Shown in pieces: positions 1-9,679 of a DNA stretch of 20,433 bases (the first letter of the stretch is position 1; every line of letters begins with the position of its first letter). The position numbers and the translations under genes were made by a program. Under the pieces are notes generated by a model. That model saw only the letters and a program-made list of their open reading frames with translations. It had not been told where the DNA came from and did no database searches. The stretch is taken from the IMG/VR virus record IMGVR_UViG_3300024517_000136, positions 1 through 20,433 of that record; one strand, 5' to 3'. Origin of the DNA: a virus.

Positions 1-14
1 ACGGAAACAATGTC

Positions 15-362
15 ATGTCTTACGCCAAGGGTTGTATCGAGTTTGAGATCGAGCCGCTCAAGTCGTACGGCAAGACTCGTGCCTTGATTCAGGAACTAAG
101 AGCAGACGCACGGCGGTCTGCGCATCCTGAACTCGCTGCAATGCAAGATGCTTGCGCTGAGCTGGACGCGGCATGGACCACGCTGCGCTCGACAATCGTC
201 GGCACGGACTTGGTCGACTTGGTTCAGGAACTCACTGAGAAGATTGAGGGACTGAACACGGCGGCAGCGGAGCAGATAGCCGCTCAAGATGCCATCGAGG
301 ACAATCTGGAGGAATTGACCGCTCCGGATATGGTTACGGATGTCGTAGCCGAGGCCGCGTAG
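15..362 (+). CDS. Unknown acidic helical protein, possibly 5'-truncated by the window edge
   Basis: I do not recognise this gene. From the ATG at 15 it encodes 115 residues rich in Ala, Glu, Asp and Leu. The pattern is long amphipathic helix (heptad-like Leu/Ile/Ala spacing around residues 60-100) with an acidic C-terminus. The reading frame stays open to the first bases of the window, and only a weak GGA at 3-5 precedes the ATG. The true start may therefore lie upstream and this could be the tail of a longer protein. It is visibly richer in GC, especially at third positions, than the following genes. It is closed by a strong hairpin and a gene-free stretch, so it probably ends a different, perhaps late, transcription unit. 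Coding status is likely; function is unknown. Confidence 0.6.
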   Translation: MSYAKGCIEFEIEPLKSYGKTRALIQELRADARRSAHPELAAMQDACAELDAAWTTLRSTIVGTDLVDLVQELTEKIEGLNTAAAEQIAAQDAIEDNLEELTAPDMVTDVVAEAA

Positions 363-387
363 CCTAGCGGTAGCAGTAAACAAGGTG

Positions 388-413
388 ATGCCCGCGCCGA
401 GAGGCGCGGGCAT
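388..413 (+). terminator. Strong GC-rich hairpin, probable terminator
   Basis: The 11-bp perfect stem ATGCCCGCGCC / GGCGCGGGCAT closes a 4-base GAGA loop, 26 bases after the preceding stop codon. The bases that follow (TGTTGCGTTGCG) are only moderately T-rich, so a classical U-tract is lacking. It may be a terminator of reduced efficiency or an mRNA 3'-end protecting hairpin. Its place between a GC-rich gene and the next gene block fits an end-of-operon role. Confidence 0.55.
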
Positions 414-425
414 TGTTGCGTTGCG

Positions 426-537
426 TGTATTATGAACAGTGACTCGCTGTATTCGTTATTACCGCGATCACGACCAGTCATAGCCTAGCGGATAGGGGCT
501 ATGTCATCGAACCGGGTCATTGTTCATAGTGCATACA
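426..537 (+). ncRNA. Putative structured RNA element, copy 1 (three-way junction)
   Basis: Bases 426-446 pair with 513-537. TGTAT pairs with ATACA, a GTGC bulge follows on the 3' side (529-532), then TATGAACA pairs with TGTTCATA. A G-U pair comes next, then TGACTCG pairs with CGGGTCA with one G-U. This gives 21 pairs interrupted by one bulge. Inside, CTG/CAG (447-449 with 475-477) and TCGT/ACGA (453-456 with 470-473) form one arm. CATAGCC/GGCTATG (479-485 with 497-503) forms a second arm. The pairing was worked out by eye. A role as RNase III site, mRNA leader structure, riboswitch-like element or stable ncRNA is inference; no known RNA family was recognised. Confidence 0.55.
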
Positions 538-556
538 TAAGAAAGGAGTACATAGC

Positions 557-598
557 GTGTATTATGAACAGGGCATGGTGTGTCAGCGGTCACCATAG
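557..598 (+). CDS. Possible 13-residue leader peptide
   Basis: A GTG at 557 lies 8 bases after an AAAGGAG (542-548), exactly the spacing of the next Shine-Dalgarno to the ATG at 672. It opens a 13-codon frame (MYYEQGMVCQRSP) ending TAG at 596-598. The codons cover the whole 5' arm of the second structured element. A ribosome here would unwind that helix, so this could be a regulatory leader or simply a leftover of the repeat duplication. Nothing shows that it is translated. Confidence 0.22.
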   Translation: MYYEQGMVCQRSP

Positions 599-652
599 CT
601 TAGGGAGTAATGGTCCTAAGAACGGCATCATGCCTTGTTCATAGTGCATACA
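558..652 (+). ncRNA. Putative structured RNA element, copy 2 (three-way junction)
   Basis: This has the same architecture as the copy at 426-537. TGTAT pairs with ATACA, the identical GTGC bulge sits at 644-647, and TATGAACA pairs with TGTTCATA. A G-U pair follows, then the inner helix GGCATG/CATGCC, which differs in sequence from copy 1 but still pairs. Internal arms are GTG/CAC (578-580 with 591-593) and CTTAGG/CCTAAG (599-604 with 615-620, loop of 10). GCGRTCAC is shared with copy 1 before the second arm. The element ends just before the Shine-Dalgarno of the gene at 672, so it lies in that gene's 5' leader. Confidence 0.55.
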
Positions 653-671
653 CAACAAAGGAGTACATACA

Positions 672-896
672 ATGGAACGCCATAAACTCACATTCACGCA
701 GAGTACATACTTTAAGTGTCTGCACGTACAAAGAGGTGAGTACGAAAAGACTCAGCACCACGTGGTAACCGATGGAGTTACAACAGCACGCGGTGACACT
801 CGCAAAAAGGCCGAGAGTCTATTCAATGTATTTATCTACGCTCAGCCGCGGTCTGACTACAAGCCATACACGGCAGGTTCAGGTAGTTGGCTATGA
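672..896 (+). CDS. Hypothetical small protein
   Basis: This 74-residue protein is of unknown function. It is the first ordinary gene after the tandem structured elements, with a strong AAAGGAG 8 bases before the ATG. The sequence is polar and basic in the first half (residues 1-50), with a Gly/Ser/Trp end, no membrane segment and no cysteine pair. The pattern THHVVTDG...ARGDTRKKAESLF (residues 27-51) looks like a compact alpha/beta fold but I cannot assign a family. It overlaps the next gene by ATGA, so the two are probably translationally coupled. Its position right after a leader with RNA structure suggests an early or regulated gene; that is inference. Confidence 0.72.
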   Translation: MERHKLTFTQSTYFKCLHVQRGEYEKTQHHVVTDGVTTARGDTRKKAESLFNVFIYAQPRSDYKPYTAGSGSWL

Positions 897-3328: not shown

Positions 3329-3476
3329 GCCTCTCAGTAAGAGTCAGCAACGACGCTTCAAGGTACAAAAGGACCCCAAGAAACGAGCACGTGTCACTCA
3401 ACGACATGAAACAGCCGTTAAGTACAACCGCAAAGAACAACAAGAAGAGTTGCGTGATGAACTTCGACAATCCTAA
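3321..3476 (+). CDS. Small basic helical protein
   Basis: The start is ATG 3321, nine bases after AAAAGGA (3305-3311); ATG 3315 would be only three bases away. The 51-residue product is highly charged, with a Lys/Arg/Gln-rich continuous helix (SKSQQRRFKVQKDPKKRARVT and on) and a C-terminus EELRDELRQS. It has no hydrophobic core of note, so it probably folds on a partner or nucleic acid. It overlaps the next gene by 20 bases. Confidence 0.55.
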   Translation: MTKPLSKSQQRRFKVQKDPKKRARVTQRHETAVKYNRKEQQEELRDELRQS

Positions 3477-4170
3477 GCCTCTCTACAATCTAACAACTAA
3501 CAAAGGGCGTCTGCACTGTAGACCTCGGTATGAGCTTAAAGGATGGCATGGGTTCTGTACGGGTGGGATACTTGCAGGCATTACTGCCCACACCCAGTCA
3601 GAGCTGCGCAACAACCCACCAAGACAAAGACAATTTAAAAAGGACTTGCTACGACGAGGTGTGTTACCCCCTGTTCCTACTATTGCGGCGTACTTTGGAC
3701 TCATAGGAAAAAAGGCTCTATCATCTTACCTGTGCGTACCCCGTAAGTATATCCACGACTACATACTTTATAACATGTGGCTTAAGTCCACCACAGGCGA
3801 GGGCGGCGCAGACATGTGGGGAGGTAATCAGTACGCCAGTAAGATATTTGCTTTGGGAGACAGAGCCAGACGTAACGAACACAGAGTATCATGTCATTCA
3901 TTCGCTAGGTACCTAAAAGAACATAAGGACATATGTCGCATGGTAGGTCTAGGACGTACCGCAGGTGCACATGGCGGAGAGGGGCACTCATGGCTGTTTA
4001 CTATATACGCTGATAAAGCAGAGAAGTACTTTAATGGAGTACTTGATGAACTCAACGAACATTTACTTTACTTGAATAACTATGCGAAGGAACTCAGAAA
4101 GAAAGATGAGTACAAGGACATAGTAGAGATACAGACAGAAGACAAAAAGATACATGGACTGTGGGTATGA
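3457..4170 (+). CDS. Unknown protein of 237 residues
   Basis: I chose ATG 3457, seven bases after GAAGAG at 3444-3449. The frame extends upstream to 3391 without a ribosome site and over the previous gene. The protein is unrecognised. It has a middle region with alternating helices and Gly-rich loops (GEGGADMWGGNQYASK, residues about 117-132). A His/Arg-rich stretch follows (RRNEHRVSCHSFARYLKEH, about 139-157), then GAHGGEGHSWLF near 170. The last 60 residues are a long charged helix. The conserved-looking Ser, Cys, His and Gly/Glu/Gly/His motifs could make a catalytic or DNA-binding site, but I do not assign one. It directly precedes the ligase module, with nine bases between its stop and the first possible start of the next gene. 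Confidence 0.75.
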   Translation: MNFDNPKPLYNLTTNKGRLHCRPRYELKGWHGFCTGGILAGITAHTQSELRNNPPRQRQFKKDLLRRGVLPPVPTIAAYFGLIGKKALSSYLCVPRKYIHDYILYNMWLKSTTGEGGADMWGGNQYASKIFALGDRARRNEHRVSCHSFARYLKEHKDICRMVGLGRTAGAHGGEGHSWLFTIYADKAEKYFNGVLDELNEHLLYLNNYAKELRKKDEYKDIVEIQTEDKKIHGLWV

Positions 4171-4185
4171 GGAGGAGTAATGGCT

Positions 4186-4623
4186 ATGAAAGTAAGAGAT
4201 AGTGGCACAGTTAGGGTGCTAGTGTACGGCACTTTAAAAGAAGACCAGACCAACTACGAACTACTTAAAAGGTGTGGTGCTAAGTTCATGGGGTACGACA
4301 GCATCACGGACGACCTGTTAGTACGTGACCTTGGTCCTTTCCCCGGAGTCTTCGAGTCTAAGACAACAAGTGTCGTTAAGGGAGAGCTGTACAGCATGCA
4401 AGAAGAGGCACTTGCTCACCTTGACTTCTACGAAGGACATCCCCACTTCTTTCGCAGACGCAAGTTATGGACTGATCTACAGCTCAAACGTGCGTGGGTA
4501 TACTTCTGCGTAGCTGATGACTTGGATGATCCTAGAGCAAACAATGAGGTCCTATTAGGGCTATGGCATGGATCAGCAGGCGAGAAGCTATTCTGGAAGG
4601 AGCAAGCAAGTGCCCAAAAGTAA
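4186..4623 (+). CDS. Gamma-glutamylcyclotransferase-like (AIG2-like) protein
   Basis: Family members of this fold release 5-oxoproline from gamma-glutamyl amines or amino acids. With the start at ATG 4186, eight bases after GGAGGAG (ATG 4180 is only two bases away), the product has 145 residues, the usual size. The substrate-binding loop VYGTL is at residues 13-17. The segment FPGVFESKTTSVVKGELY (52-69) and the catalytic-type glutamate in LDFYEGHPHF (E83) follow the family pattern. Next in the operon come amidoligases, a glutamine amidotransferase and an ATP-grasp enzyme. It therefore probably trims or proofreads gamma-glutamyl products of that pathway. Fold assignment is firm; the exact substrate is not known. 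Confidence 0.85.
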   Translation: MKVRDSGTVRVLVYGTLKEDQTNYELLKRCGAKFMGYDSITDDLLVRDLGPFPGVFESKTTSVVKGELYSMQEEALAHLDFYEGHPHFFRRRKLWTDLQLKRAWVYFCVADDLDDPRANNEVLLGLWHGSAGEKLFWKEQASAQK

Positions 4624-4978
4624 CGTCGTGCCGTTCTACTTCACTGTGCGTGTCGAGAAGCACACCGGAGAGATACGCCAACGTCAAGGTACATTAGAAG
4701 CTGAGTCTGTTAGTGCGGCTATGGATGAGATAGAGGCACGCGCTTATGGATGGAACGCAGTCATACTTAGCGCGCAGATTAACGAGACAAACAAACGGGG
4801 CGAGATTGCGCTAATGACAACGCAGACCCCCAAGACCCAGAAACAGAAGAGTATAAAGGTCTTAATGCAAGAGGCCCGAGAGAAGAAGGAGAACACGCTA
4901 GAACTAACACACGTGCGCGAGTACAGCACGGAGTGGCACCTACCCACATTCGCAGTACTAAAGATGGAGGACCTGTAA
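4610..4978 (+). CDS. Unknown protein of the ligase module
   Basis: The start is GTG 4610, seven bases after AAGGAG (4597-4602). It overlaps the end of the cyclotransferase gene by 14 bases; an in-frame ATG at 4568 lacks a site. The 122-residue product begins with a beta-rich half, FYFTVRVEKHTGEIRQRQGT, then EAESVSAAMDEIEARAYGWNAVIL. This strand/helix/strand unit resembles small ubiquitin-like or ferredoxin-like folds found in many phage proteins. A Lys/Gln-rich linker and a C-terminal part with YSTEWHLPTFAVLKME follow. I do not recognise a family. Its place between cyclotransferase and ligase makes it a candidate substrate, carrier or partner; that is inference only. Confidence 0.7.
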   Translation: MPKSNVVPFYFTVRVEKHTGEIRQRQGTLEAESVSAAMDEIEARAYGWNAVILSAQINETNKRGEIALMTTQTPKTQKQKSIKVLMQEAREKKENTLELTHVREYSTEWHLPTFAVLKMEDL

Positions 4979-5829
4979 TGAAGAAGATACCATGTGATCC
5001 ACAGATAGGCGCAGACATTGAGGTATTCGTGTACAACCGAGACAATGGTCTGGTCGTGCCTTGCGTAGGTCTTATTGATGGCACAAAGGACAAGCCGTTT
5101 GAGCCCAAGGATGTCACAAAGGGATTTGCACTACAAGAAGATAACGTCATGCTGGAGTACAATATCCCCCCCGCCCAGACTACACGCACATGGATGGGTC
5201 GCTTTGATGTAGCGCGACAGATGATTAAGGATAATCTTCCTAAAGAACTCAGTTATATAATAAAGCCAGAGCATAAATTCCTCTCTAAAGAACTTGTCTC
5301 GCCGCAAGCACAGACAATAGGATGCGAACCAGACTTTAATGCCTATGAGGGTGGGGAAATGCGCACCTTCGCAGGGATATTAGGACGACACCGTAGCTGT
5401 GGTGGACATATACATTTAGGGGGAGACTTCAACTGTCCTGATTTTGTTGCTGCACTGTTCGCTGAACTCTGCATAGGGGTACAGGGGCGTGCTGGCCCCA
5501 ACAAAGCTAATACGAGAACCGAGTGGTATGGTCGTCCGGGTATCTACAGACCCAAACCTTACGGCATAGAGTACAGAACACCTGATAACAAATGGACTGA
5601 TGTAAATGACACTATACATGGTGTGGGCAGTGCAGCACTTAGACTAAGCACGTGGCTTACAACTAACGAGGCTGCTGTTATCCGAAAGGCATTTAGGGCA
5701 GTACAATGGACCCGAGTTCGAGACTACATGGTACCGCCGACGAAGATAGCAAGGGGGGATCATGTAGCGCGTGACAGACTACGTACTGCTATTATTAACG
5801 AGGCTGTCGGCGCAGGAGTACCACTGTAA
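4978..5829 (+). CDS. phiEco32-like COOH-NH2 ligase, type 2 (glutamine-synthetase fold)
   Basis: Enzymes of this fold join a carboxylate and an amine using ATP and metal ions. From ATG 4978 (TAATG junction, GGAGG upstream) the product has 283 residues. Visible family marks are the metal-binding strand GADIEVFVYN (11-20), DNVMLEYNIPPA (55-66), GCEPDFNA (115-122), GGHIHLGG (142-149) and GIEYRTPDNKW (196-206). Glu and His residues there correspond to the metal and nucleotide site of glutamine-synthetase-like ligases. The family was described from phages such as phiEco32 by Aravind and co-workers. The acceptor and donor here are unknown. It is one of two ligases of the fold in this operon. Confidence 0.85.
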   Translation: MKKIPCDPQIGADIEVFVYNRDNGLVVPCVGLIDGTKDKPFEPKDVTKGFALQEDNVMLEYNIPPAQTTRTWMGRFDVARQMIKDNLPKELSYIIKPEHKFLSKELVSPQAQTIGCEPDFNAYEGGEMRTFAGILGRHRSCGGHIHLGGDFNCPDFVAALFAELCIGVQGRAGPNKANTRTEWYGRPGIYRPKPYGIEYRTPDNKWTDVNDTIHGVGSAALRLSTWLTTNEAAVIRKAFRAVQWTRVRDYMVPPTKIARGDHVARDRLRTAIINEAVGAGVPL

Positions 5830-6395
5830 TGAAACCGTCACAAGCAAATAAACAAGACTGGCGCATGTATTACTCGGGTACATGGATGCACCATATCACA
5901 CGAGGGCCCGGCTACATACAAGTTCTGGACGGTGACTTACACTGGTCTGATGGTAATGAAGCTCATCCTGCTGTACAAGTCGAGGCGGCAGACTTAGAGT
6001 GTTGGTGGCCCAGAAGCGGATCATACAACACACCCGGTGGGGCTGTTTACATAGCCCGGAGAGCTGCTAGAAACATGCGTAAGTCAGCGTGTATGGGAGA
6101 CCACTACCGGCTTACGTATGGTCATGGTCGTGGTGATTGCATGGCTCTTATGGTTAACGGGCCCGACTATGTAACAATAAAGGATGCTGTTAAAGCAATA
6201 AACAAGAACATTGCAGCCTCTATTGCGATCACCCGTGATATTATAGTAACACCCACAAACAAGAATGAGATTGAGGTTGTATTCAGAGGTAACCCCACAG
6301 GAATACTAAATGACGATGGCTTTGAGCCGTACATACAAGCTGATCCACTAGCTAAGCGTGCGTACATTAAACTAATGCAGGAAGGTGTACTATGA
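5829..6395 (+). CDS. Unknown protein between the two amidoligases
   Basis: The product has 188 residues and is joined to its neighbours by a one-base overlap (TAATG) upstream and a four-base overlap (ATGA) downstream. Residues 10-70 are Trp-rich and beta-like (WRMYYSGTWMHH, YIQVLDGDLHW, DLECWWPRSGSY). The middle, VYIARRAARNMRKSACMGDHYRL, looks like a basic helix and strand. The end has regular alpha/beta pattern (VTIKDAVKAINKN, EIEVVFRGNP). A short barrel-like domain followed by a helical part is possible. I recognise no family. The tight coupling suggests that it works with the ligases, as a specificity or carrier subunit for instance, but this is inference. Confidence 0.75.
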   Translation: MKPSQANKQDWRMYYSGTWMHHITRGPGYIQVLDGDLHWSDGNEAHPAVQVEAADLECWWPRSGSYNTPGGAVYIARRAARNMRKSACMGDHYRLTYGHGRGDCMALMVNGPDYVTIKDAVKAINKNIAASIAITRDIIVTPTNKNEIEVVFRGNPTGILNDDGFEPYIQADPLAKRAYIKLMQEGVL

Positions 6396-7366
6396 TTAAC
6401 CTTGAGACTAAACTCTCTAAGCTAGTCCCTAACGTAGCCCGAAGAATAGGTCCCCGCGTAGGAATAGAGCTTGAGTATGAAGGATTTAGTCCTCGTCAGT
6501 TCGCTGCGACCGAAACAAAAGTAACAAAGTGGTACTTAGAGAACGATCCAAGTCTACGCGGAGGAGGTATTGAGCTAATCAGTACCATATTACAGCCGGG
6601 GGCTGTTAAGTCTGCCCTAGAGGAAGCAGTAAACATAATCAAAGCATCAAGAGCTAAAGCACACATACGATGCGGGGTACACGTCCATCTTAATATGTCT
6701 GATGTGGTAATTAAGCATCTATGGAACCTAATAGTGTTGTATGTCCTAATGGAGCCGTCTATATTCAAACAATTTGCTGATGGTCGTGAATCCAGTCACT
6801 TCTGCGTACCGCTGTGGTGTAATGCTCTGTTTGCCCAGACGCTGTACGGTGATATTAAGCATCTACGAGTAGGTATGAAGGCATACAAGCAGCCCGCACA
6901 AGATGAGCCTATACTATGGCGAGACCATCCTATAGAGGCAGGCATGGTGCAGGAAGCAAACATAAGAGTGCCCGGTCGCATACACGACCCCCTACGCAGA
7001 ATACCGAAGCCACAGCCGCAATTAGGTGTATTTAACTGCATCAAGTACTCCGCACTTAACTTTAAGCCACTGAGTACATTAGGTAGTATCGAATTTAGGC
7101 AACACCCAGCGACGACCGACATGAAGAAGATACAACGATGGGTAGACTTCCTGCTAGGACTACGTGCCTTAGCGGAAGAATACGACGATCCACTAGATAT
7201 ATTAGACCAATACGAGGAGATTGGACGCGCAGGTATGTGCGAGAAGGTAGGTCTGGAGCACAATAACGTCGATGAACTAGACCAAGAAGAAGCAATAGAC
7301 GTTGCAACTATGGCGGCAGGTCATAAGCCTACGCCTTGGAATGAACTTGAATGGGAGATCAACTAA
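6392..7366 (+). CDS. Putative amidoligase (Amidoligase_2-type, glutamine-synthetase fold)
   Basis: This is a second COOH-NH2 ligase of the glutamine-synthetase fold, 324 residues long and distinct from the one at 4978. Visible marks are VGIELEYEG (23-31) with the metal-binding E-x-E pattern, NDPSLRGGGIELIS (51-64), CGVHVHLN (94-101) and the arginine-containing strand GSIEFRQHPAT (231-241). These follow the order and spacing of the family, and the site for ATP, metals and gamma-phosphate appears intact. The start overlaps the preceding TGA, and GGAAGG lies upstream. In known neighbourhoods such enzymes go with gamma-glutamylcyclotransferase and amidotransferase proteins, as here. The bond made is unknown; gamma-glutamyl or aspartyl amide formation is the usual guess. 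Confidence 0.87.
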   Translation: MINLETKLSKLVPNVARRIGPRVGIELEYEGFSPRQFAATETKVTKWYLENDPSLRGGGIELISTILQPGAVKSALEEAVNIIKASRAKAHIRCGVHVHLNMSDVVIKHLWNLIVLYVLMEPSIFKQFADGRESSHFCVPLWCNALFAQTLYGDIKHLRVGMKAYKQPAQDEPILWRDHPIEAGMVQEANIRVPGRIHDPLRRIPKPQPQLGVFNCIKYSALNFKPLSTLGSIEFRQHPATTDMKKIQRWVDFLLGLRALAEEYDDPLDILDQYEEIGRAGMCEKVGLEHNNVDELDQEEAIDVATMAAGHKPTPWNELEWEIN

Positions 7367-8871
7367 TGTGTGGAATTGTTGGTTATATATCAACGAGGGA
7401 CGAGAAGTACATAGAGGAGAAGCGACACTTCATGCACTTTGCTCTCACATTGGATACACTGAGGGGCTTTGACTCCACAGGTATTATCAATGTGGATCAG
7501 AGATTCCGCGTGACGACACAGCGCAGCCTCATGGCAGGAGATAGGTTCGTCCACTCTAAGCACTACAAGAAAGATTACCAAGACGCGTGGTGTAAGATTG
7601 GCCATAACCGAGCGGCAACTATTGGCAATATCAAGCTGAAGAACACCCACCCGTTCAACTTTGGACCAATCACGCTAGTACATAATGGGACATTGGCGCA
7701 CAAAGGCGCAAGCCTACCGACGTTTGATCATACACTGACAGTGGACTCTATGCAGATTGCTCTTGCGCTATCACAGGGAGAGCCAAACGAAGCGGCTAAG
7801 ATACTTGAGACTATCGACGGTAGCTTTGCCATCGTGTGGACTGACCAAAGGAATGAAAGCGTCAATATGGCACGCAACAGTGACCGCCCAATACATTACG
7901 CATGGAACAGGACTAAGGATATCATGTGGTTTATGAGTGATGGGCTTCACCTCAAGACAATCAACAAGAGTCTATGGAAGACACCATGTGAAGGTCATAC
8001 TGTGTTCCAGATGGATAAGTACAAGATACTAACATTCCGAAAGGGAACAGTCGTGCCGGTGGTCACGGCCTTTCGCCCTTTTGTACGCACTCAGCGGAAC
8101 ACCTCCGGCCCGATAAAGACCGGTGGAAGCCCAACAGCCTTGCAGCGCGCTACCGACAAATGGAGCGAGACTATAAAGGGTCAGGGAGCTGGTGCGTCAG
8201 GAACGGGCGTAAGGTCTGGGTTGAGGGCAATAGACATGCGGATACAGGTAAGCGGAAAGAGTCGCAGGCTACTGGTAACACACCTGAGCGAGCTACATCG
8301 AGAATTCGACTTAAAGCCGACACGGTATTTAGAGTTCTCGCCCGTCATAAAATACGTACAGAAAAACGGCAGATACACCGTACTCGGTGACATCGTACAT
8401 GATGAGTGGGGCGATAGTGAGTGGGACGCTGTGATATACGACGTCAAGCCTGCCCTAGCTAATGCGTATGATGGCCAGAACTGGACAATAAACCCTGTGG
8501 GACTAAGTAGACCGCATGTAATACCCGACAAGGTAGAGCAAGCAACAGTGCCCAGTGTGCTATGTAAGCTGGTTAACTGTGACTGGGAGCAGTTCAAACC
8601 TATGGAGGGACCCCCCGACCCAAAAGTAGAGACGGACAACACGAGCCCAATCTTAGTGTTAGTTGGGGATATGGAGATAGAGGTCGCAAGGTTGGACAAG
8701 CTATTGGACTCGGGCTGCGTATCTTGTACCGCAGCTATGACTATGGACGATACAGGTTCCGCGCTCATTGTAAACGATGGCCGGGACTTGTTATGCGGGG
8801 GTTGTTTGGCAACTCTGAATGGATCGAAGCTACGAGACTCACTCGACGAGAGTCCAACACACTTGAACTAG
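7366..8871 (+). CDS. Class II glutamine amidotransferase-domain protein with C-terminal zinc knuckle
   Basis: Class II amidotransferase domains hydrolyse glutamine with an N-terminal cysteine to release ammonia. The start must be ATG 7366, because that puts Cys2 (MCGIVGYIS) at the processed N-terminus. An ATG 15 bases upstream would hide it. Further marks are GFDSTG (34-39), GHNRAATIG (79-87, Arg82), THPF (94-97), HNG (106-108) and DSMQIALAL near 127. After about residue 220 there is no known synthetase partner domain. The chain goes on for 280 residues of unrecognised sequence and ends with CVSC (451-454) and CGGC (477-480), a likely zinc site. Released ammonia could feed the ligases of the operon. 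Total length is 501 residues. Confidence 0.88.
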   Translation: MCGIVGYISTRDEKYIEEKRHFMHFALTLDTLRGFDSTGIINVDQRFRVTTQRSLMAGDRFVHSKHYKKDYQDAWCKIGHNRAATIGNIKLKNTHPFNFGPITLVHNGTLAHKGASLPTFDHTLTVDSMQIALALSQGEPNEAAKILETIDGSFAIVWTDQRNESVNMARNSDRPIHYAWNRTKDIMWFMSDGLHLKTINKSLWKTPCEGHTVFQMDKYKILTFRKGTVVPVVTAFRPFVRTQRNTSGPIKTGGSPTALQRATDKWSETIKGQGAGASGTGVRSGLRAIDMRIQVSGKSRRLLVTHLSELHREFDLKPTRYLEFSPVIKYVQKNGRYTVLGDIVHDEWGDSEWDAVIYDVKPALANAYDGQNWTINPVGLSRPHVIPDKVEQATVPSVLCKLVNCDWEQFKPMEGPPDPKVETDNTSPILVLVGDMEIEVARLDKLLDSGCVSCTAAMTMDDTGSALIVNDGRDLLCGGCLATLNGSKLRDSLDESPTHLN

Positions 8872-8884
8872 AGGAGAATAAGAA

Positions 8885-9679
8885 ATGAGTATAAGAATTT
8901 ACCCATACAAGCTACGATCAAGGGGAGCACGTGCCTTGGCGAAAAGACTTGGGGTACTAATAACAACGCCCAAACAGATACGTAAACACAAAGACTTTGG
9001 GACTATCATTAACTGGGGTAGCGCAGAGGAGAAATTCAATGGGACCTACATTAACACTCCCGCAGCGGTGGCGAATGCTCAGTGTAAAGCGGCCACTTGT
9101 ACTGCCTTGGGACTACAGGACGTACCGACGCCTCCGCACACAGCTGACATGGACACAGCACGCGAATGGTGGGGAGATGGAAAGGTCGTGGTCTGCCGTC
9201 AGCTACTTCGGGCCAGCCAAGGTCGTGGAATTGTACTTGCAGCACGTGACCTCGATCAGCCCATCGTTCGTGCGCCGTTATATACGCTATACGTAAAGAA
9301 GCAAGACGAGTACAGGGTACATTGTTTCCGAGGAGACATTATCGATATTCAAATGAAACGAAAACGTAAGGAGATGAATAATGAAGAAGTTAATTACCAG
9401 ATTCGCAATGCACATGCTGGTTGGGTGTTTTGCCGTAGTGGAGTGGATGCTCCTGCTGCTGTACGTACTAGTAGTATTTCTGCCGTTGCTGCCCTTGGGC
9501 TTGATTTTGGGGGTGTTGATGTTGGCTGGAATCAGCACGGGGAAACTGCTAGTGTATACGAGGTTAATACTGCTCCGGGTATTGAAGGCACAACACTCGA
9601 CAAGTATTACGAAGCTTTCGCGCAAGCTCTCCCCGAAATTAGAACTGGAGCGTTCAAGCGCCGTCGGTCTATGGTTTAA
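8885..9679 (+). CDS. ATP-grasp ligase (RimK-like)
   Basis: ATP-grasp enzymes activate a carboxylate as acyl phosphate and couple it to an amine or thiol. The product has 264 residues from ATG 8885, with AGAGGAG upstream. The family pattern is visible: KVVVCRQLLRASQGRGIVLA (98-117) as nucleotide-binding strand-loop, EYRVHCFRGDIIDIQMKRKR (141-160), and a C-terminal metal site in ALGLDFGGVDVGW (202-214). EVNTAPGIEG (223-232) contains the E-x-N residues that bind magnesium. Size fits a minimal ATP-grasp. From about codon 178 to 233 its third positions become strikingly T-rich, where a second reading frame encodes a hydrophobic protein. It is the last recognisable enzyme of the ligase module. Confidence 0.87.
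   Translation: MSIRIYPYKLRSRGARALAKRLGVLITTPKQIRKHKDFGTIINWGSAEEKFNGTYINTPAAVANAQCKAATCTALGLQDVPTPPHTADMDTAREWWGDGKVVVCRQLLRASQGRGIVLAARDLDQPIVRAPLYTLYVKKQDEYRVHCFRGDIIDIQMKRKRKEMNNEEVNYQIRNAHAGWVFCRSGVDAPAAVRTSSISAVAALGLDFGGVDVGWNQHGETASVYEVNTAPGIEGTTLDKYYEAFAQALPEIRTGAFKRRRSMV

Follow-up and report, generated by a model that had tools for sequence, protein, structure and literature searches.

Two tandem long RNA hairpins with a common base and differing tops, each ending in a ribosome-binding site, in a predicted phage early operon

The early processing sites of phage T7 and the leader of the lambda N gene have roles in early mRNA processing. The T7 early RNase III sites (R0.3–R1.1) are hairpins located between early genes and upstream of Shine-Dalgarno sequences in the polycistronic early mRNA of a T7-supergroup phage. 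The lambda N-leader RNase III site is a single strong hairpin that follows a control site and lies directly upstream of the Shine-Dalgarno sequence of an early regulatory gene. RNase III cuts leave ends with a 2-nt 3′ overhang. To be a target of the enzyme, a double-stranded region must measure at least 22 nt (PMC5371410). When T7 R1.1 is made fully paired, both of its strands are cut, and the base pairs of the proximal, middle and distal boxes of RNase III sites show no strong consensus (PMC8708148). For two RNase III sites in tandem on a single message, E. coli betT provides a precedent, its cuts falling within one stem-loop region and triggering decay (PMC4067347). Another early phage transcript with two hairpins is that of HK022, whose put RNA totals ~70 nt and binds RNA polymerase (PMC9378689).

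The window considered here (the whole stretch of 20,433 nt that was analyzed, a fragment of a virus record) holds a compact run of plus-strand genes. Its DNA polymerase matches those of zobellviruses (Vibrio phages, VpV262) and of Stenotrophomonas phage StenR_269 at ~40% identity. Among IMG/VR records, the DNA polymerase of G001 (L014) is identical to that of the window, and those of G002 (L015) and G003 (L016) share 69% and 58% identity with it. The largest gap in the gene map, 309 nt at positions 363–671, lies between genes 1 and 2; the next largest is 46 nt. Both flanking genes are syntenic in G002, where the gene 2 homologue shows 41% identity (E 7e-18). Gene 1, whose homologues in relatives are 273–295 aa long, probably opens the early operon, because it is the last gene before an opposite-strand run in G002. 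Occupying this only long gap of the compact, predicted early operon are two tandem long RNA hairpins that have a common base, differing tops and, at the end of each, a ribosome-binding site. The features of the region, followed by those of the wider gene run, are:

3–362, plus strand: gene 1, 3′ part, with homologues in G002 (E 2.6e-14) and G003 (E 4e-8)
384–417, plus strand: GC-rich hairpin after gene 1, 15 bp, no U-tract on the plus strand
423–554, plus strand: unit A, a hairpin with A-rich linker and Shine-Dalgarno
425–446, plus strand: unit A closing helix, 5′ arm (425–439 common to unit B, 440–446 private)
479–503, plus strand: unit A apical hairpin (479–486 pairs with 496–503)
513–534, plus strand: unit A closing helix, 3′ arm (520–534 shared, 513–519 private)
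542–548, plus strand: unit A Shine-Dalgarno AAAGGAG, 8 nt before GTG 557
555–669, plus strand: unit B, a hairpin with A-rich linker and Shine-Dalgarno
557–581, plus strand: unit B closing helix, 5′ arm (557–571 shared, 572–581 private)
557–598, plus strand: possible leader frame GTG...TAG, MYYEQGMVCQRSP, predicted from sequence only, the start codon beginning at the first base pair of helix B
625–649, plus strand: unit B closing helix, 3′ arm (635–649 shared, 625–634 private)
657–663, plus strand: unit B Shine-Dalgarno AAAGGAG, 8 nt before ATG 672
672–896, plus strand: gene 2, 74 aa, served by unit B, of no known family, with a syntenic homologue in G002
Gene run of the window, plus strand: DNA primase, DnaB-like helicase and exonuclease
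Gene run of the window, plus strand: DNA polymerase
Gene run of the window, plus strand: a set of amide-ligase-related genes

The last of these sets falls in a cluster at 4180–9679, which comprises a gamma-glutamyl cyclotransferase, a phiEco32-like COOH-NH2 ligase, an Amidoligase_2 and a class II glutamine amidotransferase, together with a putative ATP-grasp gene that has no Pfam match. A similar gene set occurs in StenR_269, and the content of the cluster suggests a phage-made amide or peptide modification. The StenR_269 record (L226 34742–41554) annotates a virion-associated RNA polymerase of ~2270 aa, and its polymerase is close to that of the window phage; in contrast, zobellviruses are said to be without an RNA polymerase (PMC9960094).

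Units A and B directly abut. They have in common a 5′ end, GCGTGTATTATGAACAG, and a 3′ end, TTGTTCATAGTGCATACA with AA.AAAGGAGTACATA, apart from one further difference between the copies; their middles are unrelated in sequence. In the 5′ arm the copies are identical up to 439/571, and in the 3′ arm from 520/635 onward, so that the boundary is one and the same base pair on both arms (439·520 in A, 571·635 in B). Inward of it, unrelated sequence supplies 7 more pairs in A and 10 in B, which bears out the claim of the initial annotation that the inner helix halves differ and yet pair in both copies. The placement of the boundary at one base pair is the strongest indication that the unit is the paired RNA, with the covariation drawn from two paralogous copies in one contig. 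An assembly error may lie at the duplication.

On the plus strand, copy A (423–540) folds with -45.9 kcal/mol (z -4.9) and copy B (555–655) with -47.3 kcal/mol (z -6.8), and none of 200 shuffles was as good for either copy. The most extreme plus-strand fold of the window for its GC content (541–650, z -4.96) is within the tandem element. Both closing helices are unbroken, spanning 22 bp in A (425–446/513–534) and 25 bp in B (557–581/625–649), whereas the next longest uninterrupted helix in the window has 15 bp and when the whole window was dinucleotide-shuffled 160 times, the longest helix had 12–19 bp. The initial annotation had placed the tandem copies correctly, and the signal exceeds its description, which gave closing helices of 20–21 bp, but its geometry needs correcting. 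The GTGC that was read as a conserved bulge is paired in the plus-strand RNA, where GUGUAU pairs with GUGCAU via G·U pairs. Since this continuous register is favoured over the bulged one by 5.5 kcal/mol in A and 3.2 kcal/mol in B, the latter was rejected as the main RNA form. Two internal arms had also been described at the same place in each copy. The top of A instead has one firm arm (479–486/496–503) and one weak arm, and the minimum for B is a single extended arm, in which forcing CTTAGG/CCTAAG costs 2.7 kcal/mol. With tops that fold differently, a shared three-way junction is not supported. Both copies do end in a Shine-Dalgarno sequence as described, with the same 8-nt spacer.

The minus strand of each unit reaches only about -33 kcal/mol, 12–14 kcal/mol worse than the plus strand, and the helices contain 5 and 6 wobbles, seven of them distinct, all of which are G·U on the plus strand and none A·C. 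Had a DNA palindrome been selected, G·U and A·C wobbles would be expected to be equally common, and the chance of such a bias would be ~1/128, or ~1/16 without the three outer-register wobbles, where a choice of register exists. Because the helices were chosen as the longest on the plus strand, the wobble bias toward plus-strand RNA is suggestive and not decisive. Taken with the weaker minus strand, it nonetheless makes RNA in the gene direction a better fit than a cruciform. Folding of cognate arms gives -93.0 kcal/mol and that of crossed arms (A with B) -80.5 kcal/mol, 12.5 kcal/mol worse, so that through its private inner helix each copy prefers its own arms. Selection on RNA shape, as first proposed, is therefore supported by the very long helices, by the unrelated inner halves that both pair, by the all-G·U wobbles and by the weaker minus strand.

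The position of the element suits phage early mRNA processing, and its size and duplex form suit RNase III. The most likely reading is that of tandem RNase III-type processing or stability hairpins before a duplicated ribosome-binding site, to which we give about an even chance. As with the T7 sites, the location is intercistronic, between genes 1 and 2 of the predicted early operon of a T7-supergroup phage, and the unbroken 22 and 25 bp reach the double-stranded length of at least ~22 nt or bp noted for RNase III targets. The initial suggestion of a T7 early-type RNase III site thus holds for location and size, but not for the anatomy. Folded by the same method, the T7 early sites show 9–10 bp, an internal loop and then a shorter lower stem, whereas the element has 22–25 unbroken bp, with no internal loop at a cut site, in units of ~100–118 nt that are in direct tandem, share a base and are unrelated in sequence to those of T7. 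The lambda hairpin, which is likewise strong and directly upstream of a Shine-Dalgarno sequence, differs in not being tandem, in its unrelated sequence and in its link to nutL and the N protein. As the T7 and lambda sites are shorter or interrupted when folded alike, the element may work like them without T7 anatomy. In betT the likeness is in the two tandem cuts, and the difference is in their confinement to one stem-loop region.

Under the RNase III reading, the two units would be RNA hairpins in the intercistronic leader of an early polycistronic mRNA, each forming, in the gene direction, an uninterrupted two-turn duplex just upstream of its Shine-Dalgarno sequence. Host RNase III would most likely bind and cut these duplexes and so split the gene 1 message from that of gene 2. 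The former would keep its GC-rich 3′ hairpin (384–417), and the latter would start at a defined 5′ end with its ribosome-binding site exposed. The unit of hairpin plus ribosome-binding site was duplicated in tandem with its outer 15 bp staying identical, and the unrelated inner 7–10 bp and tops make each copy fold on itself with no swapping of arms with its neighbour. That the region is transcribed and cleaved, that RNase III is the enzyme and that stability or translation is affected are inferences.

The relatives keep the layout and not the sequences, and the long tandem hairpins are seen in the window phage only. They are absent from the parts of G001, G002 and G003 examined, the G001 coordinates stopping short of the region. 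An unrelated GC hairpin stands at the same place after gene 1 in G002 and G003. It is followed in G002 by a 10-bp hairpin, a Shine-Dalgarno sequence and a small basic frame before gene 2, and in G003 by a 12-bp palindrome and a Shine-Dalgarno sequence. In all three phages (window 384–417; L094 and L095, minus strand) the GC-rich hairpin comes directly after gene 1, is not conserved in sequence and has no U-tract on its sense strand. Since G002 retains the order of gene 1, GC hairpin, second hairpin and Shine-Dalgarno with unrelated sequences, structure rather than sequence seems to be kept. Against the RNase III reading, the second hairpin of G002 is shorter than the window element as well as unrelated in sequence, and G003 has at most a short palindrome, so that a long duplex is not required in relatives. 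Nor does the enzyme need an identical outer 15 bp. The conserved base sequence is left unexplained by RNase III except via recent duplication or a second binder.

Also counting against it, no homologue was found in any collection searched, and these collections may omit records very close to the window's own genome. In Rfam, no family reached its gathering score with the element, and at a lax threshold the best was SNORD58, with 13.2 bits versus 42, so that by covariance score it belongs to none of the families there, including riboswitches, ribozymes and tandem glycine-type aptamers; the earlier remark that no RNA family matches stands, at the lax threshold too. In IMG/VR, a 17-mer of the 3′ arm had 10 matches, all in other contexts, TATGAACA...TGTTCATA had at least 120, with no similar element in any of those checked, and TATGAAC...GTTCATAGTGC had 15, none with the fold. 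The arm pair had no match in GTDB genomes, and blastn of the element in phage and plasmid records gave chance-level matches only. For the neighbouring genes (gene 2, 3391–4167 and 6392–7363), peptide-pattern searches in IMG/VR found no match, and neither did tblastn of gene 2 in phages. A two-sequence covariance model run over the relatives' sequences recovered only the two copies on their own plus strand (best outside the window, E 0.94). Homologues with compensatory changes were not found by model or sequence search.

Several other candidates and structures came to light. A promoter in the shared GCGTGTATTATGAACA was rejected, as its TATTAT lacks a -35 and a promoter scan gave no site there, and a coding role of the element was rejected with the frames at 501–641 and 610–765 having no family. 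The strongest hairpin of the G002 parts examined (L015 5595–5750, z -8, arms 95% complementary) was rejected as a homologue because it is an inverted duplication of coding sequence; it has the look of template switching during replication, or of an artefact of assembly. In Vibrio phage 1.015.O, a zobellvirus, a 21-bp unbroken hairpin between two early genes (L227 1557–1600) is possibly a terminator. The perfect palindrome TCACACGTGTGA, which recalls a dispersed operator such as a stoperator, occurs 11 times in the examined parts of G003 (L016, L101) and four times in those of G002 (L015, L099); several copies are just upstream of a Shine-Dalgarno sequence or start codon, and none is in the window.

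An alternative that we consider unlikely is that of a control RNA whose outer 15-bp duplex is bound by a protein of phage or host, or by the polymerase, the variable tops being spacers. It could be a translational repressor site or a put/nut-like antitermination RNA that acts immediately downstream of the GC hairpin; control would be exerted on the ribosome-binding site that adjoins the base of each hairpin. Such a role would account for the identity of both strands of the outer 15 bp, for the freedom of the rest, with the boundary at the same base pair on both arms, and for the Shine-Dalgarno sequence within 7–8 nt after each hairpin, and the element lies after a hairpin, a position at which antitermination would be of use. 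Recent tandem duplication explains the outer identity equally well, however, and neither a lax Rfam match nor a homologue in relatives was found. The put RNA of HK022 has another size and form, with two stem-loops joined by a short junction (PMC9378689) and no long unbroken closing helix. The units here measure 101–118 nt with one long closing helix, and no resemblance in sequence to put was found by Rfam or blastn.

It is improbable that the hairpins have no function, having arisen by replication template switching and then been duplicated in an otherwise free spacer. The inverted duplication in G002, with 66-nt arms at the end of an ATP-grasp-like gene, indicates that such events may happen in the lineage, and relatives are without long hairpins at this place. 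Chance origin sits poorly, however, with seven distinct wobbles that are all G·U on the plus strand, with two independent inner halves that both pair without mismatch, and with the retention of a 309-nt spacer by a genome in which the next gap measures 46 nt.

We find an attenuator-like leader very unlikely. Here, translation from the first ribosome-binding site of the frame at GTG 557 (14 codons including the stop, 13 residues) would unfold helix B and control gene 2. The frame starts at the first base pair of that helix, the first Shine-Dalgarno sequence is spaced from it exactly as the second is from ATG 672, and G002 has a 43-residue frame from a GTG at the corresponding place. Equal spacing largely follows from duplication of the hairpin with its ribosome-binding site, though, no single amino acid predominates in the peptide, and the second ribosome-binding site is outside helix B, so unfolding would not expose it. 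Equally remote is a role at the DNA level, with the palindrome TATGAACA/TGTTCATA, which is perfect over the outer 8 bp, as the basis of a cruciform, an origin of replication or a site of recombination: the tandem copies with conserved ends and variable tops do resemble, in general form, folded recombination sites such as attC, whose core boxes at the ends are GTTRRRY and RYYYAAC, but the GTTCATA of the conserved end TTGTTCATAGTGCATACA has C at position 4, the wobbles become A·C mismatches on the weaker-folding other strand, and no such site was found elsewhere in the window or in the relatives' sequences searched.

The element is probably a known kind of thing, namely mRNA processing at RNase III-type sites, in an unusual and so far unique sequence. 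With one contig and no homologues found in the collections searched, it carries modest weight. Its two copies nonetheless amount to a natural experiment that separates what was kept (15-bp base, pairing, spacing of the ribosome-binding site) from what was free (inner helix, tops). A bolder and rather improbable proposal is a new class of phage leader RNA built of modular tandem units, every one of which would combine a conserved duplex of 15 bp for recognition with a replaceable top and a ribosome-binding site of its own. Inner helices would diversify against mispairing with the neighbour, and a phage or host protein would recognize the units to control early genes in a phage whose Zobellviridae relatives are reportedly without their own RNA polymerase. 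If the units are processing sites, early mRNA processing, known mainly from T7-like phages, would extend to distant relatives of the VpV262 group, and would do so with a fully duplex geometry different from that of T7-like phages.
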